This document shows positions 1 through 24,087 of a stretch of DNA of 64,000 bases, in pieces. Each line of letters begins with the position of its first letter. Position 1 is the stretch's first letter. Position numbers and translations under genes: made by a program. Under the pieces are notes generated by a model. The model worked only from the letters and a program-made list of their open reading frames with translations, made no database searches and had not been told where the DNA came from. The DNA is from Nitrospirota bacterium (lineage in GTDB: Bacteria > Nitrospirota > Thermodesulfovibrionia > SZUA-242), in NCBI GenBank assembly GCA_016212095.1, contig JACRHH010000022.1:1-64000 (forward strand), in the 5' to 3' direction.

Positions 1-216
1 GGAAACAAGCCCCTGCTTTTCGAGGTACGCATTGGACAATCCGCTGTTCGTCGATAGCGTCTTTGCAAGATGCCAGTAGCCTTTCCGGCTCAGGCCCGTG
101 AGTATCGCGTGATACCTCGGCGCTCCAAGCCGGATCAACTCTCCGATTCTCCTTCCGCACCTGCGCCACTGCTTCCGGTAGCACATTCTGATTCGCCTGC
201 GCAAACAGGCGGCAGC
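1..216 (-). pseudogene. Group II intron reverse transcriptase/maturase, 3' remnant
   Basis: Reading the minus strand from 216 to the window edge gives 72 open codons that match the C-terminal maturase/DNA-binding end of group II intron-encoded proteins. Visible signatures are LRRRIRMCYRKQW, then RRIGELIRLGAP, SRKGYW and NAYLEKQGL, in the order expected for this family. The frame is closed upstream by a TGA at 217-219, and the next gene ends only about 60 bases away, so the reverse transcriptase and most of the protein are missing. The true C-terminus lies beyond the left edge. It is a decayed mobile intron fragment and cannot encode an active maturase. The function is known from the family; truncation is seen directly. 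Confidence 0.85.
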
Positions 217-279
217 TCATGATGAAACCGGCTGCGTCCGGTACGATCACAGGAAATTACTTTACTTGCACAGAGTTGC

Positions 280-585
280 CTACGCATGAATAGGCTGCGC
301 AACCAAACGTACTCCAAGGGCAGCGCACACACGAATAATGGTGTCGAAACGGGGGTGAGCATCAGGGCGGAGGGCTTTGTACAAGGCCTCGCGGGTGATG
401 CCTGCGGACTTCGCTATCTCGCTCATCCCCCGCGCACGGGCCGCAATGCCCAAGGCGTGGGCAAGCTCCGAGGCGTCGCCATCTTCAATCGCCATAGTCA
501 CATAGGCGGCTATGTCCTCTTCGCTTCTCAACTGCCTGGCCATGTCAAAATCAGGCAGATCGGCAATGCGGATGTTCTTGGTCAT
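280..585 (-). CDS. HigA-type addiction-module antitoxin (XRE-like)
   Basis: A 101-residue protein of the 'probable addiction module antidote' family, which pairs with a phage Gp49-like/HigB-type RNase toxin. Landmarks are the acidic EDGDASELAHALGIAARARG stretch (about residues 34-53) and the helix-turn-helix segment MSEIAKSAGITREALYKAL. Such proteins neutralise the toxin and repress their own operon. The start at 585 follows the toxin frame by 3 bases, with a GGAG ribosome-binding sequence lying inside the end of the toxin gene. The upstream toxin is frameshifted, so this may be an orphan antitoxin. Family assignment is confident; current activity is unknown. Confidence 0.85.
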   Translation of the reverse strand: MTKNIRIADLPDFDMARQLRSEEDIAAYVTMAIEDGDASELAHALGIAARARGMSEIAKSAGITREALYKALRPDAHPRFDTIIRVCAALGVRLVAQPIHA

Positions 586-588
586 GGA

Positions 589-1135: not shown

Positions 1136-1169
1136 CTCGGCCCCCCGCCTCACTGAGCCCGCAAGCTTC

Positions 1170-1198
1170 TTGACATCGATAAACAAATTGTTTACATT
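1170..1198 (+). promoter_or_regulatory. higBA promoter with built-in operator
   Basis: TTGACA at 1170-1175 and TACATT at 1193-1198 are separated by 17 bases, a near-consensus sigma-70 promoter. Between them lies a perfect hyphenated palindrome AAACAA-A-TTGTTT (1181-1193), the sort of site at which a HigA-type antitoxin would repress. The higB ATG is only 6 bases after the -10, so the transcript would begin at or next to the start codon and lack a ribosome-binding site. Confidence 0.75.
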
Positions 1199-1204
1199 CA
1201 TTTC

Positions 1205-1486: not shown

Positions 1487-1499
1487 AGGAGACACAGAC

Positions 1500-1796: not shown

Positions 1797-2139
1797 TTCA
1801 CCGCCGAGCAATACACGCGAGTAATTCCAATCGGGCCAAGGGACGGCATCTAACCGTCCCCCCCAACACCACCCATCGTGCGTCTCCGCCCATTTATCCG
1901 GAATATGCGCGGTTCGCGGAAATCATCTGGCCGTAGCCGGATGGTGAATCCTGATCCACATTATTCGCATCTGCGTCCGGCAAGGCGGCGCAGCCGGGTT
2001 TTGAATCCATTGACGGCTTGGCCGGTGGCGGTCAGCCGGTTTCTCGTGAATGTGAAGCCGGGAAACGAACTTTCCTGAGCGAGGACAACATTGCTTTTGT
2101 CACGGTTACGATTGTGAACGGAAGGGTTTGCGAGAACTT
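1797..2139. other. Gene-poor gap after higBA
   Basis: GGGACGG (1840-1846) pairs with CCGTCCC (1854-1860) and is followed by more C residues; it is a plausible transcription stop for higBA, though without a U tract. The remainder (about 1860-2139) shows no recognisable gene. A plus-strand frame ending at the TAA near 2140 reads like ordinary coding sequence for about 40 codons, but has no start and no family I recognise, so it may be a gene remnant. Confidence 0.4.
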
Positions 2140-4884: not shown

Positions 4885-5001
4885 TCAGGCTGCCTTCCGG
4901 ATCGATTTTGTAATGACATGCGGTTATTTTTATGGATTATCAGAACAGTATCTTAAAAAAACCTTTCTCCTTTTTCATCCTTCCCCCTAGCTCCAGCCAC
5001 A

Positions 5002-6835: not shown

Positions 6836-7986
6836 GGCGTCTTGACGGCAGGCATCACCGGGGCTGTCCGAATGTCGATGCCTGTCAATTCGCTGCCTTC
6901 AACAGCATCAACCGAATGGTTTGCATTGCCCTCGTACAGCCCGAACATCTCGCCGGCATCCGGAGCTTCGCCCGATTTTTGTCTTGCGACAAGATAGTAC
7001 ATTCCTGGCTGAGAAAGCCCGATCCTGTAGCGCCCGTCATCATCCGTTATTGCCATGTTCGGCGTCTTTGTCCGGATTATATGCATCTGGAACAATCTGT
7101 CACGCCCGGCATTGTAGGCTGTAACAAACGCGCCACTGACAGGTTGCCCCCTCATATCGGTCACGCGACCGCTAATGGACAACGAGTGCGATGCGGCATC
7201 GGACGGGCCACGCCTGAAATCGCGCATCCTGATGCCGCCTGTTGAAACAATACTGTTTCCTCTCACTCTCCGTTCAGGAGGCAGTTTGGACGGATCATCC
7301 AGAAACGCATAAAGATCATCCTTCGGATAGCATTCAATCGAAACAGAACAAGATTGTCCGGTCGTCACGGTTACCTGATTTCCGGTGTGCCGACAGTACA
7401 GGTCGCCCTTTTCTAGAGGCTTCATCTGCTCTTTCCCGTTCCTTCTGCGCGCCACAACCGCATATGATCCCGGCCCGATATCAAAACGAAAATTCCCACG
7501 ACTGTCGATTGTGGTTGTAAGGAGCCCCATTCCGCGAAAATACCCGTCATTGGCCGGATAGATGGAAACCCGGCCTCCGGATACCGGATTTCCCTTGAAC
7601 GTGACATGCCCAGACACGCCCTCCCTCCCGTCGGAGCAAACGGCATCGGTTGCCGGCAAGGCCATTAATGGGATCCAGGCAGGCGCGTCGGATATTGTCA
7701 CCGGATTTGCGCCGTGATATGCGACATGTTTCAGTCCGCCTGAATAACCGCTTGCGGTCAGATAATATGAACCTGCCGGAAGTTTCAGACGATATTCACC
7801 AGGCTTGTCGCCGCCGACCGCCCTGAATCCGCCTGTTTTCGATATAAAGGCCGAGTAATCGGAATACGCCTCGACAATGGCGTTCTCCACCGGCCCGCTG
7901 CTCGAAAAAACGATTCCTTCGACCGGCCCGCAGTGCGCAGCCGAAGGAATCAGCAGGGGGAGAAAGAATAATGCGACAAGTAACAC
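6832..7986 (-). CDS. Secreted carboxypeptidase-regulatory-like domain protein
   Basis: About 384 residues. A GTG at 7986, 13 bases after the giant gene's stop and preceded by AGGA, is the best start; no ATG fits without entering the upstream gene. A hydrophobic export signal (LLVALFFLPLLIPSAAHC) is followed by at least three Ig-like carboxypeptidase-regulatory modules: GPVEGIVFSSSGPVENAIVE, GVSGHVTFKGNPVSGGRVS and SISGRVTDMRGQPVSGAFVT. Each carries the phrase pattern GxYxLxLPAGSYYL or GRYRIGLSQPGMYYLVA. It resembles the 292-residue protein two genes later, so the two flank the beta-helix gene and may be paralogues. Cell-surface location is inferred. The exact start is uncertain. Confidence 0.68.
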   Translation of the reverse strand: MLLVALFFLPLLIPSAAHCGPVEGIVFSSSGPVENAIVEAYSDYSAFISKTGGFRAVGGDKPGEYRLKLPAGSYYLTASGYSGGLKHVAYHGANPVTISDAPAWIPLMALPATDAVCSDGREGVSGHVTFKGNPVSGGRVSIYPANDGYFRGMGLLTTTIDSRGNFRFDIGPGSYAVVARRRNGKEQMKPLEKGDLYCRHTGNQVTVTTGQSCSVSIECYPKDDLYAFLDDPSKLPPERRVRGNSIVSTGGIRMRDFRRGPSDAASHSLSISGRVTDMRGQPVSGAFVTAYNAGRDRLFQMHIIRTKTPNMAITDDDGRYRIGLSQPGMYYLVARQKSGEAPDAGEMFGLYEGNANHSVDAVEGSELTGIDIRTAPVMPAVKTP

Positions 7987-7999
7987 GCCATATAATATC

Positions 8000-10900
8000 C
8001 TAAGGCGCGCAAGTGCCGTCGCCTGCCGCGTATGCCGGGGCTGTAACCGCTGCCTCCGAGCTGTACTGAGAGGTATCGGAGCCGCGATACGACCGCACAC
8101 GATAGCGATGCTCCTTGCCCGGCTCAATGGACATGGTGTCGGTAAACGTGGTCACATTCGGCCCGACCGTGGCTATCTGCTTGAACCGTCCGTTCCATAG
8201 CTTTACCTCGATCATGAATCCATCCTCGTCGGAGGCGTTATCGATCCAGTTCAGGCGTATCATCCGCGAGTTGATCGGAGTTGCGGCAAGTCCGGACGGG
8301 CCGTCCGGACGCGTGAGGTTGCAAACTGTGCCGGTATACAGAAGAGGCCACGCGCATGACGCGCTCTTGTATGAACGAATCCGGTAACAGTAAGTTGTGG
8401 ACGCCTGCAGCCCGGAATCGGAATAATGGCCGGTTGACGAACTCAGCCTGAAATCGTCAACACGAGCGGTGAGTGTGACGGCTGCCGTTCGCTGGGCATG
8501 TTGAGATATTTCCACGGCGGCCGGCTCGCCTGCCGTCGATGCCTGAGTGTGGGTGAGCATCAGTGTCCATGCGCTTCCGTTCCATCTATACGCGGACAAC
8601 ATGCCGGCAACTCTTGTGATGCGGAGCTTGCCGCTCATGTCGGTGGTTGCCGCCAACTGGCTTTCAGTAGCGCTGTTAATGCGTGCGTACGCTGAATAAT
8701 TTCCTGCGGTTCCGGTGTAATTACGATCCACGTAAATGTAATCGGCGGTTGCAGGGCCGCTACCGTCCGGATCCGCGAACAATACATACAGTCGAGCATA
8801 AACACTGCTCTGGGCAACCGTAATTTCGCCGTTTGGAAGCGTGAAGCTTACCTGCATGTCGAAATCGGCGTTGCCGATGGCCGAAGGATTCGCCAGATAA
8901 ATCTTCGACGTGTTCCAATTGGAACTTAATCCGGTTACGGTCGTATACAACTGAACCATGCCGCCCGTTACTGTGATGCGCGAGGTTCCGCTTGAATCGG
9001 TTACATCTATGGGCACGGTTGTGTCGGAGCTCGATGCAAGAAAGCCTGCCTGGCTCCAGGATGCGGAATCGATCCCGGTGTCGAAGCCGTCGATGTTCAC
9101 CATTGATGAAACATTGGCTATTTCGGCGAAACTTGAACATCCGTCACCGGCGCATCGCTCCACCTTGAATCCGGTTTCGTCGATGTTCTCGTCCTTCCAT
9201 TGCAGGTCTATTCTCTTCGTGGGAAGCGCATCGTCTATCTTCTCCACGACTGCAAGATCATGCGGTGTTGCAGCGGTCATGGTCGTGGCTGAAGACTGCG
9301 CTCCATAACCAGACTGCCAGGTCGCGCTCTTGACGGCGCGAACCCGATAGCTGTACGGTGTCGCCTGACAGACCGATGTGTCGCTATAGGTTGTTGCATT
9401 GGCGGCGGCGGCATAAAGCAGGGTAAAATCGGAGCATCCGCTTCCGGCGCAACGCTCGATCTCGAATCCGGTTTCGGAACCGCTGTTGTCTACCCATGAA
9501 AGATCCATCCTCGTTGTGTTCATGACGGACGTTGTCAGCGATGCAGGCGCTGTAACGGTAGTCTCGCCGGTTGCCGTGTTGCTGTAATCGGTATTCCATG
9601 CGTTTGTCGCTGTCTTGTAGGCGCGCACCCTGTAACAATACGTGGTCGAAAAGTCCAGCCCTGTATTGGAATATGTTGACACGTTTGCCGCAACCGTGGC
9701 GATTTCGGCAAATCCGTTGCACGTTGCGTCGCCGCGCTCGATGCTGAATCCTGTTTCATCGACGGGATTGTCAGTCCACGACAGGTTAAGCTGAACCTCC
9801 GAAACCCAAGCGACTGCAAGTCCTGAAGGAGCAACCGGGGTAAGCGTTGCTACATCGGCCAACGTGTTGCTGTAGCCGGAATTCCACGGGAATGTGCCAT
9901 TGACCGCGCGGACTCGGTAGCTATACACACTGGAGTGAACAGCCGATGTATCGCAGTATGTATTGACGCCGGCGGCTGTAGACGCCAGCGTGGCGAAATC
10001 CGCGCATCCGGTTCCTGCGCACCGCTCGATCTCGAAGCCTGTCTCGGATGAAGTGGTGTCTGTCCACGACATGCAAGCCTGTGTTGTGTTAACGCTTGTC
10101 GCGGCCAGACCGGTTGGCGACGGAACTGTTGTGCCTGTTTCCGCGCTTCCGGCGAAGTTGCTCCATGTTCCACATGTAACCGGCTTGTACGGATAAACGC
10201 GCCAGCAGTATGAATTGAACGGCGACAGCGTGGTGTCGCGGAACTTGAACGTGCCGCTCGATCCGTTGAACTTGAAGTTGTCAAACCGCGTGGTATAGGT
10301 CTTGGCCTCGTCCCTGCGCGTGAAATTGCTGACCTGGACAGCCTGAACCGCGGCATCGGCAGGTATGCTAGCCGAAGCTGTAACCAGGAGCGTCCATGCG
10401 CCGTTTGTCCAGGCGTATGTCGAGATGACATTGCTGCTCCGGACAATCCGGAGCTTTCCCGATACATCGGTCGTGGAAATCGTGGAGGCATTACAGTACC
10501 ACGTATCGTTCACCATCACGCAGCCGTTGTATGTGCCGCCCGTGCTGGTAGCCTTCCGGCTGACAACAATACGGTTTGAATTCGCATATCCGGCAGGTGT
10601 CGGAAAATCCACCCTCAAACGCGCCATGTCGATTGTGTTGGTAACCGTCTGGTTGCCGTTCGGCAGCGAATAATCAACCTGCATGTCGAAGTCCGCTGTT
10701 CCGAAGATGGACGGATTGGCAAGAGTAAGCTCGGCACGGTTGTTTTCCGCCGCGCCGCCGCCCTTCGACTGGTTATAAAGCTCGACGGCTCCCAGTGAAG
10801 CGTTGTGTGTGATCGTTATCTTGCCCGATGTATCTTCAGCCGAAATCGGCGCTGTTGAATATGTTGTGCTTCCAAGCACAGCCGCCTGATTCCAGACTGC

Positions 10901-13900
10901 CGTATCGATCCCGCCTGTAAAGGTGTCTTCGTTGACCACCGTGCCGACCTGTGCGAACGAAAGCGTATTGGATGCGCACGATTCCGTCTTGCGCTCGATG
11001 CGGTAACCGGTTTCCCCGGTCATTGAATCGATCCATGACAGATCGGCTGTTGTTTCGGTTGCCGCAACTGCCGTAACACCGGTTGGAGCCGCAGGGCTTA
11101 CAGTCGTGACATCCGCTGGCACGCTGACGTTGTAATCAGTCTGCCAGGACAAAGCGCCTGACTGTTTCGCTCCGACTGCAACGGACGGCTCGGTGGTCAC
11201 GTCATTCTTGACCGCAATCCAGTCAACACGCATTCCGTGCGAATACTGTGTGAATGCGATACGCATTGTGCTGTCGTTATACGTCGTTGAATCATAAATC
11301 AGTCGCCAATCAGGATAAATATCGCCCCTGATGTAGAATTTAGCACCCGTGGCCTTCAGCACAACCTTTTCTTCGTAATCGGTATTGGCCAGATATGAGG
11401 TGTAATTGCTGCTGACATAACTGCCGCCCTTCTGATACACAAGGAAGTTGAAGTTTCCCCAGTACAGACCGTGGACAAGCTGTGTGTAGTTTGGATCGGT
11501 TGTCTGATTCAGCTCCCAGCCGATCATCAGATGGTCATCCACGCCTGCCGAATCCGATGTCCGCATCTTGGCGTAAACCGTTTTATTGGCAGTACGCGTG
11601 AATGTCTGCTGCGATATGAGAGCCTTCGACCATGCCGTATTCGCATACTGGAAATACATTCCGTTGTTCTGATAGATCGAGTTGTTCGGGTCGATCTCGA
11701 TCCATTTCGACGTATTGATGGCGGTTCCCCTGAAGTCGTCGAAGAACTCGAATGTTGACGAACCGTTGCTTGAAGCGGTGGCAAGCGGATTTCCGTAATA
11801 CAACGAAATATTGTTGTTGGCGCCGGTCTTTAGCCAGATTGTGGCGGTTGTTCCGTCTGCCTTCTTCTCGATCCAGTACGGAAGCTCAAGCAATGCGGTT
11901 TCGTCAAAGAATCTGATATCGTCGAAATCAGGCTGCATGTCCGGATCGTAAGCCAGCTCAAACTTAGTCTCATGTCCGGCCACGAAATTGGTTACAGTAA
12001 TCGCCGATTTTCTGGACCATGCTCCGCCACCCCCATTCGACATGCCCGAAACCGACGGGAAAGACTCGCTGATACCCATTATCCGGTAGTTATACGGGGT
12101 GTCAGGACAGGCATTGGCGTCCGAATACGAAGTCGCGTTGCCCGTTACACTCGCAAGCGCCGCGTAATCGACGCATCCAGAACCTGAGCAGCGCTCGATG
12201 GCGAAACCGGTATTGGAAGCGGTGTTATCCGTCCAGCTCAGACCGATCGTTGAGGCGTTCACGCCCGAAGCGGAAAGTCCGGTTGGAGGCGGCGGCGCAA
12301 GAGTTGTTGCCGATACGGATTCGCTGTATAGCGGCCCCCATGTGCAGGTGGCTGTCTTGTAAGCGTAAACCCTGTAGGTGTAAGCAGTGCTGAGTGGAAG
12401 AGTATTGTTGAGATAGCTTGAAACGTTAGGGCCAAGCGCGGCTATTTCAGCAAAGTCGGAACAGCCGACGCCAAGGCAACGCTCCACCTTGAAACCTGTT
12501 TCATCCGATGTATTGTCGGCCCAGGACAGGTTGATCTCGGATTCCGAAATTGCCGTCGCGGTCAGGCCCGACGGAGACACTGACGCAGGCGTCGCGGCGG
12601 TTGCGGTATTCGACGGCACGCCTGTCCATGTATGCGCGAAAGCATAGCAGCCGGGAGACTCCTCCGCTCCAAACGCAACCGATGGCGCGGATACAGTGTA
12701 TTTCATCACGGCAGCCCACTGTATCTTCATCTTGTGGGTGCTATGGGTGAAAGCCAAACGCATGGCGCTGTCATTGTAAGTGGAGGTTTCCTTTACAAGA
12801 CTCCAGTTCGTCAATGAGCCGCCCTTGACATAATAACGGGCGCCGGTGTCCTTAAGCTCTATCTTCACCTCATAGTCAACATTCGCACGGCTATATGTGT
12901 AGTACGTCGAATAGCCGGTATTACCGCCTTTCTCATAGGTATTGAAATAGCTGTCCACCCAGTAAAGGCCATGTATCAGCTTTGTGTAACTCGGATCGGT
13001 TGTCTGGTTGGTTTCCCATCCCATCATGATGTAATCGGAAGCCGCGGAGTCCATGCTTGTCAGCTTGACGTAAAACTGCCTGTCCGACGATCTCGCGAAT
13101 GTCTGTTTGGAGATGAGTGCCTTTGTCCAGTTGGAATCGACATAATCGAGAAGCAACCCGTTATTCTGGCTTATCGATCCGTTCGGATCGATCTCCGTCC
13201 ACTTGCCGGTATCTATCGAAGCACCGGTGAAATTGTCGAAAAACTCGAAAACGCTCGCGCCGGACGACGCGGATGCGGCAGCGGCGTTGCCGTAATACAT
13301 CGATATTGTGCTGTTTGCGCCGGTCTTCACCCATACCGATGCGGTCAAACCGTCGCTTTTCGATTCGATCCAGTACGGCAGTTCAAGATGAGCCGTCTCG
13401 TCGTAGAACCTGACATCATCGAAGTCTGCCTGCATGTCCGCATCATAGGCAATGGTCAATTTCATCTGGTAGTTCGGTTGAAATCCGGTCACGGAAAGCG
13501 GAACCCTGCGCGTCCAGCAGCCGCCAAGTCCGTTGCTCAAACCCTCGTCCAACGCCTTAACCCTGTAGCTGTATGAGGTGTCGGCGCAGGCTGATGTGTC
13601 GGAATAGGCTGTCGTTCCTGACGCAACGGCCCCTGAAGCAGCGTAATCAGAACATCCGACGCCTGCGCAGCGTTCAACCGCAAAACTCGTTTCGTTGCCG
13701 GTGCTATCAGTCCATGCCAGATCAACCCGTGTGGTGTTTACCGGCGTTGCCGTCAGGCCCGACGGCGGATTCATGGTGGTTACCGCCTCGGCTGTGCCTG
13801 TGTAACCCGTGCTCCATGAACAGGTTGCAGTCTTGTACGCGCGAACCCTGTAGCGATATGTCGTATCCGGAGTCAACTGCGTATCCGTATATGTATTGAC

Positions 13901-16900
13901 CGCGCTTGCCGCCGTCATGGTTGTGCTTGTCGAAAAATCGCAACCCACGCCAGAACAGCGGTCTATTTCAAAGCCTGTTTCATCGGTTGTGGTCAATGTC
14001 CATGTCAGGCGTATGGATTCCTCCGACATTCTGTCGGCAGACAGGCCTGTTGGCGTTGCCGGATTCTGCGTCGTGGCCGATGCCGTGAGCGTATAGTTCG
14101 AATCCCATGCTGGAGCGGTTGCCTTGACCGCCTTCACGCGATAACTGTAAGAGGTATTTGCGCAGACGGAAGTGTCCGAATAAGTTGTGACGTTTGCTCC
14201 AACCGTCCCTGTCTGGGCGAAATCGGAACATCCTGCCCCGGAGCATCGCTCAACCACGAATCCGGTTTCCACTCCGGTGTTGTCAACCCATGAGAGGTTG
14301 ATGGTGGTGGTATTTGCAGCCGTCGCGGTCAGGCCGCTTGGCGGAACAAGCGTTGTGGTTGTTTCAGCCATTACACTCTGCGCGGTTTCCCACGAGCATG
14401 ATGCATTCTTGAATGCCGTCACGCGATACCTGTATGTTGTATTCGCCTCAACATTTGTATCCTGCCACGTCGTCTTCACAAAAGCGCCGGTATTGTAACG
14501 GCTTGAAACTTCAGTGGATGTCAGCGCGCGATTGTAGACAACAGCCTCGTCGATCAAACCCTTGAACATGCCGACCACGCCGCCAGATTCAACTACTCCG
14601 CCCAACGTCAGCGGCGAAGTGGTTGATGCAAGATTGCCGGCGGCATTCGACCACTGCCCAAGCAGCGAGCCGTTCAGGTATAGCTTGAGTTCGTTGGTGT
14701 CGTTCTTGTCATATGTGACTACCAGATGATACCAGGTGTTGTTCTGTATGCCGGCATTTGTATAGGTATGCAGAAGCTGTCCGCCGGACACGGAATAAGT
14801 GAAGATCTTTACGTCCGAACCGGTTGTCCCTATCTCTAAAATGTCGTTCGCCGATACGGATGACACTCCGGCCAGAACATTGTTCACACCGTGCGATGTG
14901 GCGGATGTCTGATCCGCTGTCCGGTTGAACCAGAGTTCGAGGCTTGCCGCTGCCGGATTATTCAGCGCGCTCAGCGCGCCGAAATCCAGATAGTCATTGG
15001 TGCCGTCGAACGACCCGGCCAACCCGGATTTACCTCCCGCGGCAGTATTGGCTCCGTTGACCGCGCGTCCGTTTCTTCCGTTGCCAGAACTGTCAAGCAC
15101 TTCTCCGGCAGTCCCGTTCCAAGCAGCCTCATCCAGCTTGTACCATGCCGCGGCAAGCTGCAGATCCGGATTGATGTAATCGACAGGCGTGTAAACGGCG
15201 CTGAAATCGGTGCAGCCAACTCCGGAACAGCGATACACGTTGATACCGGACTCATCGCTGTTGGCGTCTGTCCACGACAGATTGATCTGGCCTTCCGACG
15301 CACGCGTTGCGGTGAGAACGGACTGCACAGCCGCGGCAGTGGAGGCAACATTAGAGACAGTCGCGTATGCGCTTGTCCACTCGCCGGTTTTATATGCGAC
15401 AATCCTGTAGCTGTAAACGGTTCCCTGACATACCGAATTGTCGTTGAAGGTTACAGCACCGGCAGTCACTGTGGTAAGTGTCGAGAAGATCGAGCAACCG
15501 GTTCCCTCGCATCGTTCGATCCTGAAGCCGTCTTCACCTGTTACGGTATCTGTCCAGTCCAAACGAATCAGTGTTGTGCTTGCCGGCGTCGCTGAAATGG
15601 GCGTGGGTGCAGGCGGCGTAACGGTGGTTGCTTCGCTTTCAAGCCAACGCGATTCATCGCCGTTGTTTTCGAACGACTGGATACGGTAACAGTATGTAGC
15701 ACTGATATTGAGACCGGTGTCGGTATAGGATGTCGTGTTGGCCGAAGCTGTATGGATCAGCTGCCATGCATTCGCGGACGCACAGTTACCGTTCTTGCGC
15801 TCGATCCTGTACCCATCCTCGGCGGTGGCGTTATCGAACCATGAAAGAGCAACCTGCGTGTAATACGCCGACGCCGTGAAAGGCGAAGGAACCTGAATGT
15901 GATCCCATGCGCATTTGAACATGAGGAAATCGGTGTTTCCGCTCGCGTTGGTGGTGTAACCGCCAATGAACGCCTCGCCAAGAGAATTTATGGCCACGCC
16001 GGATGCCTCGTCATGGCCGCCTGATATTCCGCTGAAAAGGGTGGCTCCAATTATGCTGCCGTCGTAGTGATATTTAACCGAAAGAATGTCCGAATCTGTT
16101 CCGTTATTGGTATTCCCCACGACACATACATTTCCGGAAATATCCATCCCCATAGTCACGGCAAGGTCATCATTCAACGGCCTGTCGAGCGTCTTCTCCC
16201 AAACAATGTTTCCGTCGGAATCGTACCTTATTACATGAAAATCGTTATTCCCGGCTCCGGTCTGCGTTGTTCCGGATATGACGATTGAATGATCGACAGG
16301 GTCTATCCTTAGACCTTTCACATAATCATCACCGCTTGAGATACCGTCATATGTTTTTGTCCAGGTTCGCGCGCCGGTCGAACTGTTGTACTTGACCAGA
16401 GCGAAATCCTTGCCGCCGGAAGCGGCGGACATGTAACCGCCTGCGTAAATATTGCCGGACGAATCGATGCCGATCACGCTTATCCTGTCATCGCCGTTTC
16501 CAGTGCCGTTGTAAACATCGTGCCAGAGCATGGAGCCGTTTGAACCGGCATATTTGGCGATAAACATGTCGTAGTTCGCGCCGTTGCCCACATAGCCGCC
16601 GACATAAATATCTCCGGCAGCGTCATAGGCTATTGAGGTCGGGTAGTCATTGCCGCCAACGCCGTTATCGTACGGAGCGGCAGCCCAGATGCGTGTTCCA
16701 TTCGACTGATATTTCAGCAGATAAATATCGTCATTCCATGCCACGTTGCGCCCGTAGCCGGTAATCGCATAACTTGTGGTTCCAAGGGTAGCAACCGCAA
16801 CGGACGATGATCTGTCGTCATCGCCGGCGGGGCCGTTATACTGATCGCTCCAGCTTGCCGGCGGGCCTGACGCAGGATAGGCGATAGTGTAGATGTCGTT

Positions 16901-18853
16901 GGTGTTCTGACCCGCTCCGGGGCTGTACATGTAAGAATATCCGGAAACAATCACGTTGTTTGCAGTGTCCACACCCACATCGGTCGCGATATCCAGATCG
17001 TTCTGGTCGCTATCGAAACGCGCATCCCAGATGAGCGCGCCGCTAACCCTGTCGAGCTTGACGGTATAGTAGTCGAACTGCCCTGCTATCGATGTGCTGA
17101 AACCGGCCGCCACGGGGTTGTTGTCGGGGCCAACCGCTATTGCATTCACATAATCATCGCCGTTGTCGGCGCCGTTATATTGATGCTGCCATGTTGGAGG
17201 CAGATACTGGATGACGGTTGTCTTTGCAGACGCCTCATCGCTGTAATGCGAGTTTCCGAGCGACGCGGTGAACGCCTTGATGCGATAATAATATTTCGTG
17301 TCCGGAGCAAGGGGAGTGTCGTTGAAGCCGGTAACATTCGGGCCGAGCGGTGGGGTAAGTTCCGCGTAGGTTCCATACAGGCCGATCTTGCGCTCGATTA
17401 TGAATCCGTCCTCGTTGGCCGAATTATCGATCCAGGATAGCGCAATCTCTGTGGTTGAAACAGTCGTGGCGGTCAGTCCGGTCGGACGGTCGAGCAGACC
17501 TGGATCGTACTTGACGACATAATAGTCTAAGTCGCCTGCCGACACGCCTTCCGACCACCCGGCCAGAATCGGCTCTCCTGTCGGTGAAAGCCCCAGGCCA
17601 ACCGGTCTGTCGTCTCCGTGAGCGCTCCCGTCGAAGCTTGCGCTCCATAAAAGGTTGCCGCTGCTCTTTGCGTATTTGATCGTCCGGAAGTTGTAATCTC
17701 CGGAAACCACATCAAACGTATAACCGGCAACGAAAACGTCACCCGATTCGTCAACCTCGATCGCAACCGGCGAATCGCCGTTTCCGTCGTTCGAGTTGTA
17801 TATGGCGCTCCAGACAGTCGAGCCTGTAGAGCCGTTGTATCGCGCCGTGTATATATCGGTTGCGCCGGTAACCGAGAAAGTCCAGCCTGTGATATAGGCA
17901 TTACCGGAAGCATCGAGATGAAGGGCAACCGGCTCTTCGTCAAATCCGTTATTGAAGGTGTTCTGCCATGTGACCGCACCGGAGGCACCGTTGTATTTCG
18001 CGCAATAAATATCCTTGTCTGTTCCGTTGAAAGAAACCGCGCCGACGATCACATTGCCGGAAGCATCAAAACCGGCAACCGTTCCGCGTTCATCTCCGGA
18101 TGCGATGTATTTGCGCTCCCAGAGAAAGGAACCGTCGGAAGCGTATTTAATTGTAAGAGCATCGAAGTTCGTTGCGTTGCGGGACTCGCCGGTCACCACC
18201 ACGCCGAACGATGACGCTGTTACCGAAGTTATGCGGTCATGACTGTTCGATGCGCCATTATACGTGACTACCCATATCGGATTGCCGTCGAGACCGGGGC
18301 CGTCTGTTCCATACTTGAGAAGCAACATGTCATCGCTGCCGCTTGCCCCTTGGGCATATCCGCCGACATACGCGTTTCCAAGCGCGTCAACAGCCACTGA
18401 TGCCGGATAGTCGTTGCCGTTGACGGAAGAATTGAATGTGTGCTGCCAGAGCACAGTCCCGTTTGTTCCGTTGTATTTGACGGTATGGACATCGAAATTG
18501 AGACCATTCCAGACATAACCGGTCACTATCACGTTGTCGGACGCATCGACAGCAACGAATACTGGAACGTCTTCTCCGCCGGATTTGTCGAATGCCGCCG
18601 TCCACGCCGTGCCGGTTCCATTGGCCAGGAACTTCGCGGTATAGAAATCGTGATTGCCGGAATTGTTGGTGAATCCGGTCACGATAACATTCCCGGCGGA
18701 ATCGACCGCTGAAGACTTGGCGTCCTGAATATCGGCTTTAACGTCGCCGCGCTGCCAGACAATGTCGCCGCCTACCGCCATCGCTGTCGCGGCCCACAAC
18801 AGCGCGAACATCACGACCAAAACCGGATAACGTTTCACAAAGACCCGTTTCAT
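8000..18853 (-). CDS. Giant secreted modular protein: SBBP propellers, 15 FnIII, LamG and DUF2341-like modules
   Basis: A 3617-residue exported protein. Start MKRVFVKRY at 18853 is preferred; a start about 20 bases upstream is possible. After a signal peptide (to about 18785) come eight beta-propeller repeats of the SBBP kind (AVDASDNVIVTGY type, about 17480-18780), one FnIII domain (about 17210-17480), and a second eight-blade propeller (about 15890-17200). Fourteen more FnIII domains follow. Most FnIII domains carry a cysteine-bearing signature, ERCxGxGCxDF. Five modules are embedded among or inside them: a LamG/concanavalin-like fold (about 14490-15160), two DUF2341-like domains (about 12655-13516 and 11160-12025; LPYWIESK and MYYGNAAA phrases), and two related lectin-like modules (about 10235-10932 and 8435-9095). 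There is no C-terminal anchor or sorting signal. It sits between the cytochrome and small secreted genes of the same operon. The likely role is a surface filament or adhesin/scaffold; binding partners are unknown. Confidence 0.85.
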   Translation of the reverse strand: MKRVFVKRYPVLVVMFALLWAATAMAVGGDIVWQRGDVKADIQDAKSSAVDSAGNVIVTGFTNNSGNHDFYTAKFLANGTGTAWTAAFDKSGGEDVPVFVAVDASDNVIVTGYVWNGLNFDVHTVKYNGTNGTVLWQHTFNSSVNGNDYPASVAVDALGNAYVGGYAQGASGSDDMLLLKYGTDGPGLDGNPIWVVTYNGASNSHDRITSVTASSFGVVVTGESRNATNFDALTIKYASDGSFLWERKYIASGDERGTVAGFDASGNVIVGAVSFNGTDKDIYCAKYNGASGAVTWQNTFNNGFDEEPVALHLDASGNAYITGWTFSVTGATDIYTARYNGSTGSTVWSAIYNSNDGNGDSPVAIEVDESGDVFVAGYTFDVVSGDYNFRTIKYAKSSGNLLWSASFDGSAHGDDRPVGLGLSPTGEPILAGWSEGVSAGDLDYYVVKYDPGLLDRPTGLTATTVSTTEIALSWIDNSANEDGFIIERKIGLYGTYAELTPPLGPNVTGFNDTPLAPDTKYYYRIKAFTASLGNSHYSDEASAKTTVIQYLPPTWQHQYNGADNGDDYVNAIAVGPDNNPVAAGFSTSIAGQFDYYTVKLDRVSGALIWDARFDSDQNDLDIATDVGVDTANNVIVSGYSYMYSPGAGQNTNDIYTIAYPASGPPASWSDQYNGPAGDDDRSSSVAVATLGTTSYAITGYGRNVAWNDDIYLLKYQSNGTRIWAAAPYDNGVGGNDYPTSIAYDAAGDIYVGGYVGNGANYDMFIAKYAGSNGSMLWHDVYNGTGNGDDRISVIGIDSSGNIYAGGYMSAASGGKDFALVKYNSSTGARTWTKTYDGISSGDDYVKGLRIDPVDHSIVISGTTQTGAGNNDFHVIRYDSDGNIVWEKTLDRPLNDDLAVTMGMDISGNVCVVGNTNNGTDSDILSVKYHYDGSIIGATLFSGISGGHDEASGVAINSLGEAFIGGYTTNASGNTDFLMFKCAWDHIQVPSPFTASAYYTQVALSWFDNATAEDGYRIERKNGNCASANAWQLIHTASANTTSYTDTGLNISATYCYRIQSFENNGDESRWLESEATTVTPPAPTPISATPASTTLIRLDWTDTVTGEDGFRIERCEGTGCSIFSTLTTVTAGAVTFNDNSVCQGTVYSYRIVAYKTGEWTSAYATVSNVASTAAAVQSVLTATRASEGQINLSWTDANSDESGINVYRCSGVGCTDFSAVYTPVDYINPDLQLAAAWYKLDEAAWNGTAGEVLDSSGNGRNGRAVNGANTAAGGKSGLAGSFDGTNDYLDFGALSALNNPAAASLELWFNRTADQTSATSHGVNNVLAGVSSVSANDILEIGTTGSDVKIFTYSVSGGQLLHTYTNAGIQNNTWYHLVVTYDKNDTNELKLYLNGSLLGQWSNAAGNLASTTSPLTLGGVVESGGVVGMFKGLIDEAVVYNRALTSTEVSSRYNTGAFVKTTWQDTNVEANTTYRYRVTAFKNASCSWETAQSVMAETTTTLVPPSGLTATAANTTTINLSWVDNTGVETGFVVERCSGAGCSDFAQTGTVGANVTTYSDTSVCANTSYSYRVKAVKATAPAWDSNYTLTASATTQNPATPTGLSADRMSEESIRLTWTLTTTDETGFEIDRCSGVGCDFSTSTTMTAASAVNTYTDTQLTPDTTYRYRVRAYKTATCSWSTGYTGTAEAVTTMNPPSGLTATPVNTTRVDLAWTDSTGNETSFAVERCAGVGCSDYAASGAVASGTTAYSDTSACADTSYSYRVKALDEGLSNGLGGCWTRRVPLSVTGFQPNYQMKLTIAYDADMQADFDDVRFYDETAHLELPYWIESKSDGLTASVWVKTGANSTISMYYGNAAAASASSGASVFEFFDNFTGASIDTGKWTEIDPNGSISQNNGLLLDYVDSNWTKALISKQTFARSSDRQFYVKLTSMDSAASDYIMMGWETNQTTDPSYTKLIHGLYWVDSYFNTYEKGGNTGYSTYYTYSRANVDYEVKIELKDTGARYYVKGGSLTNWSLVKETSTYNDSAMRLAFTHSTHKMKIQWAAVMKYTVSAPSVAFGAEESPGCYAFAHTWTGVPSNTATAATPASVSPSGLTATAISESEINLSWADNTSDETGFKVERCLGVGCSDFAEIAALGPNVSSYLNNTLPLSTAYTYRVYAYKTATCTWGPLYSESVSATTLAPPPPTGLSASGVNASTIGLSWTDNTASNTGFAIERCSGSGCVDYAALASVTGNATSYSDANACPDTPYNYRIMGISESFPSVSGMSNGGGGAWSRKSAITVTNFVAGHETKFELAYDPDMQPDFDDIRFFDETALLELPYWIEKKADGTTATIWLKTGANNNISLYYGNPLATASSNGSSTFEFFDDFRGTAINTSKWIEIDPNNSIYQNNGMYFQYANTAWSKALISQQTFTRTANKTVYAKMRTSDSAGVDDHLMIGWELNQTTDPNYTQLVHGLYWGNFNFLVYQKGGSYVSSNYTSYLANTDYEEKVVLKATGAKFYIRGDIYPDWRLIYDSTTYNDSTMRIAFTQYSHGMRVDWIAVKNDVTTEPSVAVGAKQSGALSWQTDYNVSVPADVTTVSPAAPTGVTAVAATETTADLSWIDSMTGETGYRIERKTESCASNTLSFAQVGTVVNEDTFTGGIDTAVWNQAAVLGSTTYSTAPISAEDTSGKITITHNASLGAVELYNQSKGGGAAENNRAELTLANPSIFGTADFDMQVDYSLPNGNQTVTNTIDMARLRVDFPTPAGYANSNRIVVSRKATSTGGTYNGCVMVNDTWYCNASTISTTDVSGKLRIVRSSNVISTYAWTNGAWTLLVTASASIPADAAVQAVQVSNFTRRDEAKTYTTRFDNFKFNGSSGTFKFRDTTLSPFNSYCWRVYPYKPVTCGTWSNFAGSAETGTTVPSPTGLAATSVNTTQACMSWTDTTSSETGFEIERCAGTGCADFATLASTAAGVNTYCDTSAVHSSVYSYRVRAVNGTFPWNSGYSNTLADVATLTPVAPSGLAVAWVSEVQLNLSWTDNPVDETGFSIERGDATCNGFAEIATVAANVSTYSNTGLDFSTTYCYRVRAYKTATNAWNTDYSNTATGETTVTAPASLTTSVMNTTRMDLSWVDNSGSETGFEIERCAGSGCSDFTLLYAAAANATTYSDTSVCQATPYSYRVRAVKSATWQSGYGAQSSATTMTAATPHDLAVVEKIDDALPTKRIDLQWKDENIDETGFKVERCAGDGCSSFAEIANVSSMVNIDGFDTGIDSASWSQAGFLASSSDTTVPIDVTDSSGTSRITVTGGMVQLYTTVTGLSSNWNTSKIYLANPSAIGNADFDMQVSFTLPNGEITVAQSSVYARLYVLFADPDGSGPATADYIYVDRNYTGTAGNYSAYARINSATESQLAATTDMSGKLRITRVAGMLSAYRWNGSAWTLMLTHTQASTAGEPAAVEISQHAQRTAAVTLTARVDDFRLSSSTGHYSDSGLQASTTYCYRIRSYKSASCAWPLLYTGTVCNLTRPDGPSGLAATPINSRMIRLNWIDNASDEDGFMIEVKLWNGRFKQIATVGPNVTTFTDTMSIEPGKEHRYRVRSYRGSDTSQYSSEAAVTAPAYAAGDGTCAP

Positions 18854-18867
18854 CGCCTCCGTCCCCC

Positions 18868-21800
18868 TTACCATGGCGTCACGCTGTTCCACTTCTGATT
18901 ACCGGGCCAAATCGAAGACCCGCTTGCGCTCGACGACTCATGACAAGCCCAAGTCGAATTCTTGCCGCGCGGATACTGGTAGCTGCCGTAGCTGCCCGGA
19001 TAACCACCGGAAACAACCTGCCCCTTGTGGCTGTAATCAAGGCAGTTTGTCTGCATCAAACGCGGCAATGCTGAATTATGCGGCTGGTGGCACTTCGCGC
19101 ACGGCCATGAATGCTCGGCATTCGTACCCCAACCCTTCACGGATTCGTGAATCCTGTCCTTCGACTTCCATGCGCTGTTCTTGTTTATGCCGTCGGTCAG
19201 ATTCGCCTTCGGATGACATTTCAGGCAAAGCCCGGCAAACTGCTCCTCGCTCTCATATATGCGGGAACCGTTGAACGTGTTCCTGTCGGTGTGCCAGTTC
19301 AGCGCCGGAGTGCTGTACCTGTAGTATGTTGACGCGCCCGACGGGAAATCATCCTTGTACGGCGTCGTCAGCCATGTTCCCTTGAGAAGAGGCATGGCAT
19401 ATGCCGCATCTGAGCCCAGCGTGGGAGTTACTCCGTGAGGATCGTGGCATGGCGTGCAGAGTCCGTTGATGGTTCCCATGGCCGGACTTGTCAATGCAGA
19501 GGAAGCCTTCAGGTGTCCGCCAAGAATCGGCCTGCTGTTGTTTCGATAGGAGAAGCGCGATGTCGATGCCTTTGTCCCTTGGCCGAAGGCCGCCGTATCC
19601 TTGTAGCCTCGAATCGGCTGGCTTGCACCGAAAGTGGAATTGTAGCCCCATGGCCTCGTCCCCGATGTCTGGGTATCGTGGCAATCAAAGCAGAGACCGG
19701 CGCCTGCCGCGTATGGATTGACCGAGCCGGTATCAGCATTGGCTGACGGCTTGTAAGTCATCTGATAGCCGCCCTTTCCTGCCTGCGTCTCTTTCAGGTT
19801 GGCGCCGTTGTATGTGCCGTTAAATGTCACATAACTGGAAGTCACGCCCGTGGCCTTCGATCCATGCGAGCTGTGGCAGTCGTAGCACTGAACATTCTGT
19901 GTGCCGTTTCTGGTGTTCGTGATCGTTTCATCAACACCGTTCGTAGCATCCCATCCGCCCTGATTGGCGACAGCGTTGCCGTGCGCCGAAAATGCCTTGG
20001 TGATGTTCTTCTTCGCAGCTGCATCTATGGTTGTGTACTTGCCCCATGTCGCGGTAGCGGTTTGGGAATATCTTGCCGCAACGCTCGTCCTGTCCCAGGC
20101 ATACTGACGCGGCGTCTTGCAGTCGCCATGATCGGGATCGACTATCTTGAACGGCTGGAAGTCGTTGTTCTGGTCGCTGTGACATCCAAGACAGACCTGC
20201 GTCACCTTTCCGACCTCGGTTCGTTCATCAGCCGTTCCAATCTTGTTTGCGGTAAATGTTACGGCAGTGGTTCCGGTCTGATAACTCGTCGGGCGCTGAC
20301 CCGGCCCCCAGATGACCAGATCGACAGGGGCTTCCGTAGTAGTGGTATGTGTGATGTAGTTGTAGCCCGCATGATAATCCACATTGATAAGCCCGTTCTC
20401 GGTCGCTTCCCAATGACATGCGTAGCAATGCTTGTTTGTGGTATCCACGCCCTGGACATGGTGCGAGTTCGAACGGAACTGGCCCATAATGTCCATGCGC
20501 TTCTTTATCACGCCGTTGTGGCACTTCGTGCAGTCACGCGGCAGGCCGAAACCGCTGTGACGCGGGATCGGCTTGTTCAAATGGCATTCCGTGCATGACT
20601 TGCCTGAGGCATGGCTGTCGCTGAACCTGTGCTCGTGGCAGGTGGTGCATATGCGTCCGGTGTTATGGCCATCGCCGTAATCGAAACGGTAATGCTGCCC
20701 CATCTCCGTATGGCAGACGTTGCAGATTCCGTCGTAGGGCGCCGATGTCCTTGCGTAATCGAGGCCGCTCTGCTTGCGCGTGAACGTTACATCTGCACGT
20801 TGATCGGGTATGCCGAATGTGCCATCGGTCTGGGTCGCAACCTTCTTCTGTATCATGTATATGTTGCTGTCGCCGTGCGGATCGTGACAGTCCCAGCAGA
20901 ACTTGCCGCCCTTCCACACGCCCTGCTGCAGATATTGACCGTAATGCTTGTAGCCGAAGTGAACGGATGTGGCCTTGGACACTGACGCGCTGATAAATCC
21001 GGTGCCGGGATCGTATCCAAGCACATACTGACTTCCCGTGTGGCACAAATTGCATCGGTTGTTCCGGTCGTCATCGTGGCATTTAAGGCAGACGCCCATC
21101 ATTACATACTGATTCTTCACATCATTTTTCTGTTCGACTGACCAGCTTCCCGCTCCAGTCTTGTGTCTCTGGGCATCCGTGGCATGACATACGGAAACAC
21201 ACGATGTCAGGCCGTCCGCATAGCCGGCATGTTCCTGGGAAAACGGCGGGTTATTAATTGCGCCAAGCTGCGGAGCAAGCGATCCTGCGGCATTGTGGCA
21301 GCCAAGACATTCTGTGTCGATTCCCTGCATATGGCAATAAACACATTCCTTCTCGAAGCGGGCCTCGAACTGGCTGTGCTGTTTCAGCCTGAACGGATTC
21401 GTTGTGTCGTTATGAAGGATGTTGTTGTCGTGACAGTACCAGCACGGGTTGCCGGGGAAGTTGGCCGGAGGATTGCCGGAAGAATAATTCCCTGACGCCG
21501 AAGTTCTGCCGTGGCCGCTCTGCACCCACTCGTTCATGTTGATCTTGGCGCGAGTGCCGTTGAACTTGGCGAAATCGTCAACGTCCAACTCAGTTGTTCC
21601 GTGGCATGTAAGGCATATCACCTGTCCGCCAACAGAGTCTCCCCATTGAGGATCCGCTCCGGTGTGGCAAACGGTGTTGGAGCATTTCTTTGTGGCGTAG
21701 CTATATGAACCGCCGTTTTTGAAAACTACATCCTTGGCTTTGTTCACATGATAATCCGGATTGATATGACTGACCTCATCCATCGTTCCCGCCGGAAGAC

Positions 21801-24087
21801 CGTTAACATGACATTCGGTGCATGCGCCGTTCCGTATGGTGGCGTCATGACAGTTCTCGCAAGTGAAATTAGTAAGAAGATGCCTCGGATGCGAGTTTGC
21901 GCGTTCGGTTCCGGGGCCGGTGTTGGTGTACATCGGCATCGCGCTCTTCCACTCCTGCCCGGCGGCCCACCCGGTGCGCCCATCGGTATGACAGTTCTCC
22001 TGCGAACAGGTTCCGGCAGGATGGCCGTGGCAAGTATTACAGGACGTTCTTCCCTGAGTCCACGCAAACGGCCTGACCTCCGGATTAACCGTGGTTCCAT
22101 CGCTGTGGCAATAGATATTGTTGCAGACCTTAGAGCTTGAATTGAAACTTGGCGGCATGTTGCCGACAATAGACCATCTTGAGTTGATCGCCACGTCGGC
22201 GAATTCATTTACATGTTTCGAATAATCCTTTATATTCCCGGATAAATCGACCGTATTATCGTGGCAGTAGTAACACGGATATTTTCTGACCCACGACAGG
22301 CCGGCAAGCCTTTCATGGCCATTGGAGCTCATCACCAGAGTGTCGATGTTTGTTCGCCCCTTGTGGCAGGAATCGCAATTCAGGGCTACAGTATCCGACC
22401 AGGCCACGGCCTGATTCGGGCTCCCGCCTCTTGCGTCGCTGTGACAATATGTTCCGCTACAGCCGCGGCTTCCTGTGCTGTACGAGCCGCCGCGCGAGAA
22501 AACCACGTCTTTGGCCGTATCTGAATGGGGTGCTCCAGCCTTTATTGCAGAGCTTCCGCTTGCGGTTGCGCTGTGACACTTCTCGCACGCAAACCCGTAT
22601 GTCCCGGCGTTTGTATGCGCCGCATGACGCCCGCTAAGCCCTGTTGTCGCGCCGCCGGTGTCGTGGCATGAAGAGCATGTACGCGCCGGGTCGCCCCAGT
22701 TTTGAGTCCTGAAGATGTTTGCCTTGTCGAATGGAGCGGCGTTGCTGTGGCAATAAATATTCGTGCAGGTTCCGTATCCGCTTCCGGGCGAATGATCATC
22801 GAAACCGTTGCCGTTGTACGACGCTGAACCGCCGTATATTGCAGGGAAACTTACGTCTATCACGTTATCGGCATGTTTCGCGGTTCCCGAACCTGCTCCG
22901 TTATGACATGTGGAGCAGGAATATCCGGGCTGGGAAAGATGCTTGCCATGCGAGCCGCTGTCCATGCGCGAACCATCGCCAAGCGTACCGTTGGACTTGT
23001 GGCACGAACCGCACTGAACAGACGCGGGGCTATCCCAAACCGGCGTTCCATATGCCGTAGGAGCGCCGTTACCGGATAAACCCTGCACGTTGCCATGACA
23101 ATAAATGTTTGAGCATGTGAGGTTGTTCATCCCCTTGGCGCCGGTTGCAGTCACGGTTGTTCCATTATGGGCGCGATAACCGGCTACAACCGCCTGCCCA
23201 TTGTATGCCGTGCCGTTTCCGCCGCTGGAGAAAATGTTGAAACCTATGTCGATGACATGATTGCCGCTGTCGGGCATGTTTCCAGGGTAGCCGTAATGAC
23301 ATATTTCGCAGGAATAGCCTTGCCCTTCGGCTGACGCGTGCTTGCCGTGAGCACCGGAGGTCGTCGATCCGGTTGAACCCGGAATCTCGGCCAGCCCTTT
23401 GGTTCCGCCTGTGCTCTGGCTGTTTACGACATCCTCCACCGGCGGGTTTCCGTGGCATCCATCGCAACCAATCGGTTTGAACCCCCTGCCATGACTATGG
23501 CAGCTAATGCAATCCGCCTTGTTGTAATGGATGAATTCAGTCTGTCCCGTGGCATTGAAGCGATGAAAACGGGTCAGGCTGTGACAAACCTCGCACGGCC
23601 TGGTTGACGAAGCATGAGTGTTGGAGTCGTCGCCGAATTCCGAATCGCCGTTAGTGGTCTTCTGGAATGAAGTTGAGCAACCCTGCTGCTGGGCTGTCTC
23701 GCACGGGAACATGTTGGCCGGATAATTTGGTGACGAGATTACAGGCTGAAATAATTTAATGTTTGGCGACGGACGGACATGGCATGTTTCACATGAAAAT
23801 CCGCCATATTGCCCCGTATCGGTTCCCCAGTTGCCGCTCCATTTGGCTGTTGGCGTCCAGACACCGTTTCCCTTTGCCGGATCTTCGCAATCGGCCTGCG
23901 ATGTGCCGCTATACGTGGCGTTTGAACATGTGCCGAACCTGTTACTGTTATGGATCAGATAAGAATCGTTCCATGCGATTGCCTTGAAGGGCTGGATCAG
24001 TGCGACCAAGAAAACGACGGCAATAAATGCCTTGACTGTCAGCCCGGATCTCCGACTCCTGGCATTACTCATGCTCGTGTTTGCCAT
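18868..24087 (-). CDS. Giant multihaem c-type cytochrome (32 CXXCH plus 7 variant haem sites)
   Basis: A 1739-residue exported cytochrome with a signal peptide (VKAFIAVVFLVALIQPFKAIA). I count 32 CXXCH motifs, six CX4CH motifs (CSNIYCH, CTNIYCH, CSGTYCH, CNNIYCH, CSQENCH, CSNTVCH) and one CX3CH (CVSVCH), up to 39 covalent haems. In the N-terminal half, five CX4CH sites are each followed by a CXXCH, the arrangement known as the Geobacter CxxxxCH...CXXCH domain. The C-terminus has an isolated Cys and, 32 residues later, WACHES, a possible further unusual site. The protein lacks membrane helices and a lipobox, so it is probably periplasmic, secreted or held at the surface. It is the first gene of the operon, its stop lying 14 bases before the giant protein's start. 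Extracellular electron transfer is inferred from the family. Confidence 0.92.
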   Translation of the reverse strand: MANTSMSNARSRRSGLTVKAFIAVVFLVALIQPFKAIAWNDSYLIHNSNRFGTCSNATYSGTSQADCEDPAKGNGVWTPTAKWSGNWGTDTGQYGGFSCETCHVRPSPNIKLFQPVISSPNYPANMFPCETAQQQGCSTSFQKTTNGDSEFGDDSNTHASSTRPCEVCHSLTRFHRFNATGQTEFIHYNKADCISCHSHGRGFKPIGCDGCHGNPPVEDVVNSQSTGGTKGLAEIPGSTGSTTSGAHGKHASAEGQGYSCEICHYGYPGNMPDSGNHVIDIGFNIFSSGGNGTAYNGQAVVAGYRAHNGTTVTATGAKGMNNLTCSNIYCHGNVQGLSGNGAPTAYGTPVWDSPASVQCGSCHKSNGTLGDGSRMDSGSHGKHLSQPGYSCSTCHNGAGSGTAKHADNVIDVSFPAIYGGSASYNGNGFDDHSPGSGYGTCTNIYCHSNAAPFDKANIFRTQNWGDPARTCSSCHDTGGATTGLSGRHAAHTNAGTYGFACEKCHSATASGSSAIKAGAPHSDTAKDVVFSRGGSYSTGSRGCSGTYCHSDARGGSPNQAVAWSDTVALNCDSCHKGRTNIDTLVMSSNGHERLAGLSWVRKYPCYYCHDNTVDLSGNIKDYSKHVNEFADVAINSRWSIVGNMPPSFNSSSKVCNNIYCHSDGTTVNPEVRPFAWTQGRTSCNTCHGHPAGTCSQENCHTDGRTGWAAGQEWKSAMPMYTNTGPGTERANSHPRHLLTNFTCENCHDATIRNGACTECHVNGLPAGTMDEVSHINPDYHVNKAKDVVFKNGGSYSYATKKCSNTVCHTGADPQWGDSVGGQVICLTCHGTTELDVDDFAKFNGTRAKINMNEWVQSGHGRTSASGNYSSGNPPANFPGNPCWYCHDNNILHNDTTNPFRLKQHSQFEARFEKECVYCHMQGIDTECLGCHNAAGSLAPQLGAINNPPFSQEHAGYADGLTSCVSVCHATDAQRHKTGAGSWSVEQKNDVKNQYVMMGVCLKCHDDDRNNRCNLCHTGSQYVLGYDPGTGFISASVSKATSVHFGYKHYGQYLQQGVWKGGKFCWDCHDPHGDSNIYMIQKKVATQTDGTFGIPDQRADVTFTRKQSGLDYARTSAPYDGICNVCHTEMGQHYRFDYGDGHNTGRICTTCHEHRFSDSHASGKSCTECHLNKPIPRHSGFGLPRDCTKCHNGVIKKRMDIMGQFRSNSHHVQGVDTTNKHCYACHWEATENGLINVDYHAGYNYITHTTTTEAPVDLVIWGPGQRPTSYQTGTTAVTFTANKIGTADERTEVGKVTQVCLGCHSDQNNDFQPFKIVDPDHGDCKTPRQYAWDRTSVAARYSQTATATWGKYTTIDAAAKKNITKAFSAHGNAVANQGGWDATNGVDETITNTRNGTQNVQCYDCHSSHGSKATGVTSSYVTFNGTYNGANLKETQAGKGGYQMTYKPSANADTGSVNPYAAGAGLCFDCHDTQTSGTRPWGYNSTFGASQPIRGYKDTAAFGQGTKASTSRFSYRNNSRPILGGHLKASSALTSPAMGTINGLCTPCHDPHGVTPTLGSDAAYAMPLLKGTWLTTPYKDDFPSGASTYYRYSTPALNWHTDRNTFNGSRIYESEEQFAGLCLKCHPKANLTDGINKNSAWKSKDRIHESVKGWGTNAEHSWPCAKCHQPHNSALPRLMQTNCLDYSHKGQVVSGGYPGSYGSYQYPRGKNSTWACHESSSASGSSIWPGNQKWNSVTPW

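Follow-up and report, generated by a model that had tools for sequence, protein, structure and literature searches.

The question raised by this locus is whether the additional modules of a giant protein lie between complete fibronectin type III (FnIII) domains or inside them. The window, that is, the whole stretch of 64,000 nucleotides that was analysed (contig JACRHH010000022.1 of a Nitrospirota bacterium), contains on its minus strand, at positions 8000-18892, a single open frame of 3630 residues. The giant protein that it encodes is predicted to be secreted and consists of a putative signal peptide, 15 FnIIIs (numbered F1 to F15), two putative propeller regions and five inserted modules. 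We found that whole modules are nested inside the FnIIIs F4, F10 and F14, as had been proposed in a reading made from the sequence alone (the sequence-only reading). One propeller region is situated ahead of F1 and the other between F1 and F2, an assignment based on weak SBBP, DUF5122 and delta-60 matches, and the N-terminus is hydrophobic and signal-like. A Pfam scan yielded 11 fn3 stretches, two DUF2341, one Laminin_G_3 (LamG) and weak propeller repeats, and neither CXXCH nor RTX (GGxGxD) motifs were found in the protein sequence. A chance or misread frame was rejected, because one frame is open over 3630 codons and relatives agree with it.

A hidden Markov model (HMM) of 97 positions was built from ten uninterrupted FnIIIs of the giant protein. 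F4, F10 and F14 turned out to break off after strand C' and to continue with strand E 223-235 residues later: their first halves matched the model up to position 50-54, and their second halves from position 56-58 onward. F4 consists of a first half with strands A-C' (15179..15322, model 6-50), a Laminin_G_3 insert in the C'E loop (14474..15178, PF13385, E 9e-22) and a second half with strands E-G (14351..14473, model 56-95). F10 consists of a first half (10934..11095, model 3-52), an insert that we call module X (10247..10933) and a second half (10130..10246, model 58-92). For F14, the respective positions are 9098..9271 (model 13-54), 8429..9097, again module X, and 8309..8428 (model 58-91), all on the minus strand. 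The inserts comprise about 235-236, 229 and 223 residues in F4, F10 and F14, respectively, and their previously noted positions proved correct to about 20 bases. When the halves were joined, the scores were 79.2 bits for F4, 63.7 for F10 and 83.2 for F14, compared with 48.7 and 31.5, 45.1 and 15.8, and 45.9 and 31.6 bits for the separate halves. The Pfam model fn3 (PF00041) scored the joined domains at 20.2, 21.5 and 16.3 bits, which beats every half and is below the cut-off of 25, as is also the case for several uninterrupted FnIIIs of the protein. Domain pipelines miss the nesting because neither half reaches this cut-off. The split halves noted earlier were thus recovered, whereas the boundary motifs ascribed to them did not hold throughout, because the first half of F10 ends in ERKTESC, not in ERCxGxGC, and its second half restarts with NSYCWRV. 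The two X modules are indeed related, with 42% identity and with DFDMQV and the SGKLRI phrase common to both.

Five relatives from the same class encode homologous giants (L027-L031), and a paralogue (L026) is present in the genome of the window itself. In the alignment with these six proteins, the 236 residues of the F4 insert face only 9 residues and the 223 of the F14 insert only 5, in all six, so that both sockets are empty there; F9-F10 form an extra pair of the window protein that has no counterpart in the six. The paralogue carries X in a different FnIII, aligned with F6, which is uninterrupted in the window protein. Two further giants, both from genome G228, have Laminin_G_3 in four FnIIIs (L086) and in three (L087), always in the C'E loop. 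The penultimate FnIII, which is F14 in the window, contains LamG in L086 and X in the window, and is empty in L087, L026 and the five relatives. In one case (L042), X and LamG follow one another within one FnIII. For the 11 C'E inserts called in the window protein, L026, L086 and L087, the first halves end at positions 38-62 and the second halves start at positions 40-55 of 94. In addition, MAFFT, without structural input, set uninterrupted FnIIIs flush with both ends of the X inserts. A genome search with F14 had hits in 7 of 61 genomes at E 1e-5, the window's own genome and G034 included.

An AlphaFold2 model of F14 was calculated from 12 alignment rows, all from the window and with uninterrupted FnIIIs among them. 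It contains one FnIII built from residues 1-57 and 281-321, with a predicted local distance difference test (pLDDT) score of 64-93 in the host blocks and an overall mean of 59. With VIA-align, about 90 residues spanning 1..321 superposed on solved FnIIIs (Z about 12, root-mean-square deviation mostly 2.2-2.5). For the F14 host, a seven-stranded beta-sandwich is thus seen across the insert, in the model as well as in the superposition. Together with the uninterrupted relatives at F4 and F14, the model supports the earlier proposal that an FnIII loop accepts whole domains. The nesting of whole modules inside F4, F10 and F14 is real, and we accepted it because relatives have an uninterrupted FnIII at two of the three sites, F4 and F14, and one relative has another module at F14.

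The two DUF2341 units had been thought to sit at positions comparable to those of the other inserts. This is not the case; they follow strand F and, as judged from the sequence, lie in the FG loop, with lengths of 288-291 amino acids. In F7, strands A-F (13520..13774, 98 bits, model 3-78) are followed by DUF2341 and a concanavalin-A-like jelly roll (12647..13519, PF10102, E 4e-23) and a strand G segment (12581..12646, 13.3 bits, 0 of 300 shuffles as good). The arrangement in F9 is the same, with strands A-F at 12023..12295 (93 bits, model 3-81), the DUF2341 and jelly-roll unit at 11159..12022 (PF10102, E 5.2e-24) and a strand G segment at 11093..11158 (9.8 bits, 3 of 300 shuffles as good), again all on the minus strand. 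Seven post-insert segments scored as strand G with 8.7-13.6 bits; such scores were equalled by 0-8 of 300 shuffles and by none of 554 26-mers taken from within the inserts. Further segments scored 16.0 (L086), 20.3 (L087), 23.9 (L090) and 13.1, 4.8 and 5.7 bits (L122), with 0, 0, 0 and 0, 31 and 18 of 1000 shuffles as good, respectively; strands G of the training set score 16.3-38.3 bits. The F7 insert is kept in all five relatives, the automatic caller having missed L029, in which the FnIII match ran beyond strand F. An alignment that mixed uninterrupted FnIIIs with F7 and F9 put strand G on the DUF2341 start and was therefore not used for folding; the F7 model was calculated from 8 rows, namely F7, F9 and six viral rows. 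DUF2341 is located at the protein start in two of nine viral contigs (L049, L050). A separate observation concerns the paralogue L026, which at 7509-8342 has a DUF2341 unit without preceding FnIII strands A-F together with a second, truncated DUF2341-like start; this arrangement looks like a deletion product.

From F3 onward, the FnIIIs alternate between a type with a cysteine just before strand F (type O) and a type with a cysteine just after it, in the FG loop (type E). In the nine giants (window, L026-L031, L086 and L087), the cysteines of O in domain n and E in domain n+1 were both present in 43 pairs and both absent in 66, and no pair was discordant, whereas the opposite pairing of neighbours gave 21 discordant pairs out of 109. 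Unit 12 of L030, which the script could not read, was omitted from this count; its printed sequence has the FG cysteine. Both cysteines are missing together in F11-F12 of the window protein and in units 3-4 of L026. In other proteins, 47 further neighbour pairs were counted, of which 7 had both cysteines, 39 had neither and one was discordant, the latter involving the cysteine of the GGGC that opens DUF2341 in L122. Because related rows do not count as independent observations, we give no probability for the co-occurrence. A tree of 81 FnIIIs required 10 changes between odd and even members, compared with 27 after shuffling (0 of 500 shuffles as low), with 42 of 78 inner branches unresolved. 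Pairing of the alternating cysteines within one domain was rejected, since none of 119 domains has both. In known FnIII tandems, the EF and FG loops of neighbouring domains face one another. We read the covariation as probably reflecting a disulphide between domains, from O of domain n to E of domain n+1. The inserts also follow the two types: all 11 C'E inserts were found in even (E) members and all 8 called FG inserts in odd (O) members. Relative to the earlier idea, the family appears to have not one kind of socket but two, C'E and FG, which differ in host type, and it includes both empty and differently filled sockets. Another class of the phylum harbours a giant with a frame of 3903 amino acids (L156, G299:C137) and two propeller-size gaps, in which some 20 FnIIIs retain the cysteine pairing of O with E.

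The F4 insert passed the curated Pfam cut-off of Laminin_G_3 (78.3 versus 27.6 bits) over the complete model (1-151 of 151). Module X, of about 220 amino acids, matched no NCBIfam model and did not pass the cut-off of any Pfam family, and PDB sequence searches returned chance-level rows only (best E 0.19 for X and 0.13 for the DUF2341 unit). Foldseek with the F14 model listed fibronectin first, followed by lectins, CBM66, galectin and alginate lyase; two rows were at E <=0.001, both fibronectin, and coronavirus spike proteins were among the weak rows. Residues ~55-283 of this model, corresponding to module X, matched concanavalin-A-like proteins in VIA-align (Z 9.5-10.9), at low pLDDT of the insert. 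The part of the F7 model after DUF2341 (~190-362) matched legume lectins, CBM66 and thrombospondin-1 (Z 13.3-14.3, block pLDDT 50-71), and the equivalent part of L122 matched GH43_C2, a Concanavalin A-like model, with 27.7 bits at a cut-off of 22.7. All three kinds of cargo, Laminin_G_3, X, and DUF2341 with its jelly roll, look concanavalin-A-like. We infer sugar binding, and with it the earlier label 'multivalent', from the fold. Within the class, X was detected in 6 of 230 genomes at E 0.001, with long matches in the window's own genome (3), G187, G206 (2) and G194. X comes after a strand F in G206, and in G194 it lies within a protein with 11 CXXCH motifs in which no FnIII was detected. On a Desulfobacterales contig (L032), X-like stretches alternate with stretches that, as read by eye, resemble DUF2341.

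The sequence and its homologues show C'E sockets that are empty or that hold LamG, X or, in one case, X and LamG. LamGs of the socket equivalent to F4 (window, L086, L087) are mutually just 33-34% identical, and four LamGs from different sockets (L086_4, L086_12, L087_6 and L087_8) are 55-64% identical. The only firm groupings in a LamG tree were L087_4 with the viral L053, and L086_6 with L086_8. One single insertion event was rejected, given the divergence of LamGs in equivalent sockets and the 60% identity of the first LamG of L087 to the viral one. This viral LamG follows a DUF2341, and the identity extends over 167 residues of the LamG in the L087 FnIII (5102-6046); LamGs may have been exchanged with viruses. 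A scan of viral contigs with the F14 unit gave 105 pattern matches, none of them a relative, and a scan of genome contigs with X gave 119, of which 1 was a relative, numbers that are limited by the short patterns as well as by biology.

Directly upstream of the giant lies a gene for a multiheme cytochrome with 32 CXXCH motifs (18868..24087, minus strand, TIGR01904), a conserved neighbour. The best explanation overall, to which we assign a probability of roughly 70%, is that a long, secreted rail of FnIIIs acts as the scaffold on which lectin-like modules are displayed, and that it provides glycan binding for the neighbouring cytochrome. The FnIIIs would be built as doublets, type O first and type E second, held by a disulphide from the EF loop of O to the FG loop of E. 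Because this disulphide would pin the FG loop of E, we propose that cargo is carried by E in the C'E loop and by O in the FG loop, which is free there. The modules would project from the rail, to whose surface their two ends are attached, and would bind glycans of the cell's own matrix, of coated minerals or of partner cells, and the giant and the cytochrome of the adjacent gene would as a pair anchor or orient extracellular electron transfer. Cargo would have spread by doublet duplication and by exchange at the sockets. In its fullest form, this would be a standardised rail of disulphide-stapled doublets with two dedicated sockets, in which lectin-like cassettes are swapped across species between empty and filled sockets and retune the adhesion of the extracellular cytochrome complex; we put this forward tentatively.

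Several observations weigh against this explanation. In the F14 model, the pLDDT of the insert is low (block means 26-73), and the presence of uninterrupted FnIIIs in the alignment favoured the host fold. The F7 model has a mean pLDDT of 58, with 44-55 in the FnIII and <50 in strand G; the model being weak in the FnIII, it is the sequence that supports the FG nesting. Among 13 strand G segments, three are weak (for L029, 8 of 300 shuffles were as good; for L122_b, 31 of 1000; for L122_c, 18 of 1000). The cargo rule is broken in L122, from G299 of another class, where a single FnIII carries LamG in its C'E loop and DUF2341 in its FG loop. Because of the duplication of doublets, inserts and cysteine types do not represent independent events. 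X is located after strand F in L043 and L044. In L122 itself (G299:C127, frame 319-9183), the FnIII at residues 1337-1963 is seemingly interrupted twice, and the protein has N-terminal CXXCH motifs.

LamG domains elsewhere bind proteins too. The modules could accordingly be assembly joints that bind the cytochrome, other cell-surface proteins or the giant itself instead of glycans, an alternative that is in line with the conserved pair of cytochrome and FnIII genes and that we regard as unlikely. C'E cargo is missing in five relatives with the same cytochrome, so it is not required for the pairing; the FG DUF2341 unit, retained by all five, could still serve as a joint. We consider it improbable that the nested modules are structural spacers that add stiffness or bulk to the protein without binding a ligand. 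A concanavalin-A-like fold is no proof of binding, and X has no described relatives; however, a module in a side loop would not be expected to extend the chain axis, and variable cargo at a fixed site fits binding specificity better. An ordinary sequence of modules between complete FnIIIs, with the 'halves' as degenerate neighbours, is what annotation pipelines would draw, as Pfam assigns no fn3 to F14 and only a weak fragment to F10, but it is hardly credible, because the halves are complementary, the FnIII of the relatives is uninterrupted and the F14 model closes one FnIII across the insert. Complete FnIII folds flanking the modules were thus not seen.

The display scaffold can be compared with known systems. 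FnIII, one of the best-studied domains, underlies a binder technology. In engineered FnIII binders (monobodies), the diversified loops include C'E (DE in that nomenclature) and FG; loop residues are altered there, whereas whole domains of 190-290 residues are inserted in the giant family. The closest known kind is the split Ig-like domains of RTX adhesins, described for Aeromonas hydrophila AhLap (PMC12077191) and for Vibrio cholerae FrhA and A. veronii (PMC10865825). According to these articles, the beta-sandwich of a long adhesin is likewise interrupted in such a way that a sugar-binding domain, whose two ends lie on the same side, points away from the axis; the hosts are Ig-like (BIg-like) and few per protein. 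The giant protein shares the split host, as judged from the split HMM matches and the F14 model. It differs in its FnIII hosts, of which up to five are filled and in two loops, in the empty sockets of relatives, in the absence of the GGxGxD motif of the RTX nonapeptide repeats and in the adjacent multiheme cytochrome gene, and is not itself an RTX adhesin. In the main texts, 'fibronectin' appears once in PMC12077191 and nowhere in PMC10865825. A survey of domain insertions (Schaeffer et al. 2026, PMC13114784) defines the arrangement A1-B-A2, which is also that of the giant protein; in its main text, from which the words 'fibronectin' and 'lectin' are absent, the insert is smaller than the host in 77% of events and insertion positions are evenly spread, whereas the inserts of the giant protein are two to three times the host size and at fixed sites. 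Pfam Laminin_G_3 (PF13385) and DUF2341 (PF10102) match two of the cargo kinds, and neither model includes the placement in FnIII. In searches that covered an open-access library, we found no report of FnIII as host of whole inserted modules, nor any of an FnIII inter-domain disulphide, of FnIIIs with nested lectins, of LamG inserted into FnIII of bacterial adhesins or of multiheme proteins with fibronectin in Thermodesulfovibrio. The family, with its matched empty sites, would show which FnIII loops bear large cargo and how cargo is exchanged, and the cysteine covariation gives a testable prediction on the stiffening of FnIII chains. If the modules bind glycans, the giant would tie adhesion to the large cytochromes encoded alongside.

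All nine giants share a short, conserved C-terminal tail of the approximate form P-x-[YW]-x-x-x-D-x-[TA]-C (window 8000-8030), a loosened form that is the only one to cover L087; the tail is possibly a sorting or anchoring motif. The idea of a riboswitch ahead of the cytochrome gene found no support, as Rfam gave 0 matches in the window. Within the stretches compared, the relatives keep together the cytochrome, the giant and the downstream carboxypeptidase-regulatory and beta-helix genes. In the window, the latter two (6832-8127 and 5867-6835) overlap by four bases (ATGA), and both match one frame of ~680-750 amino acids in the loci of the five relatives.

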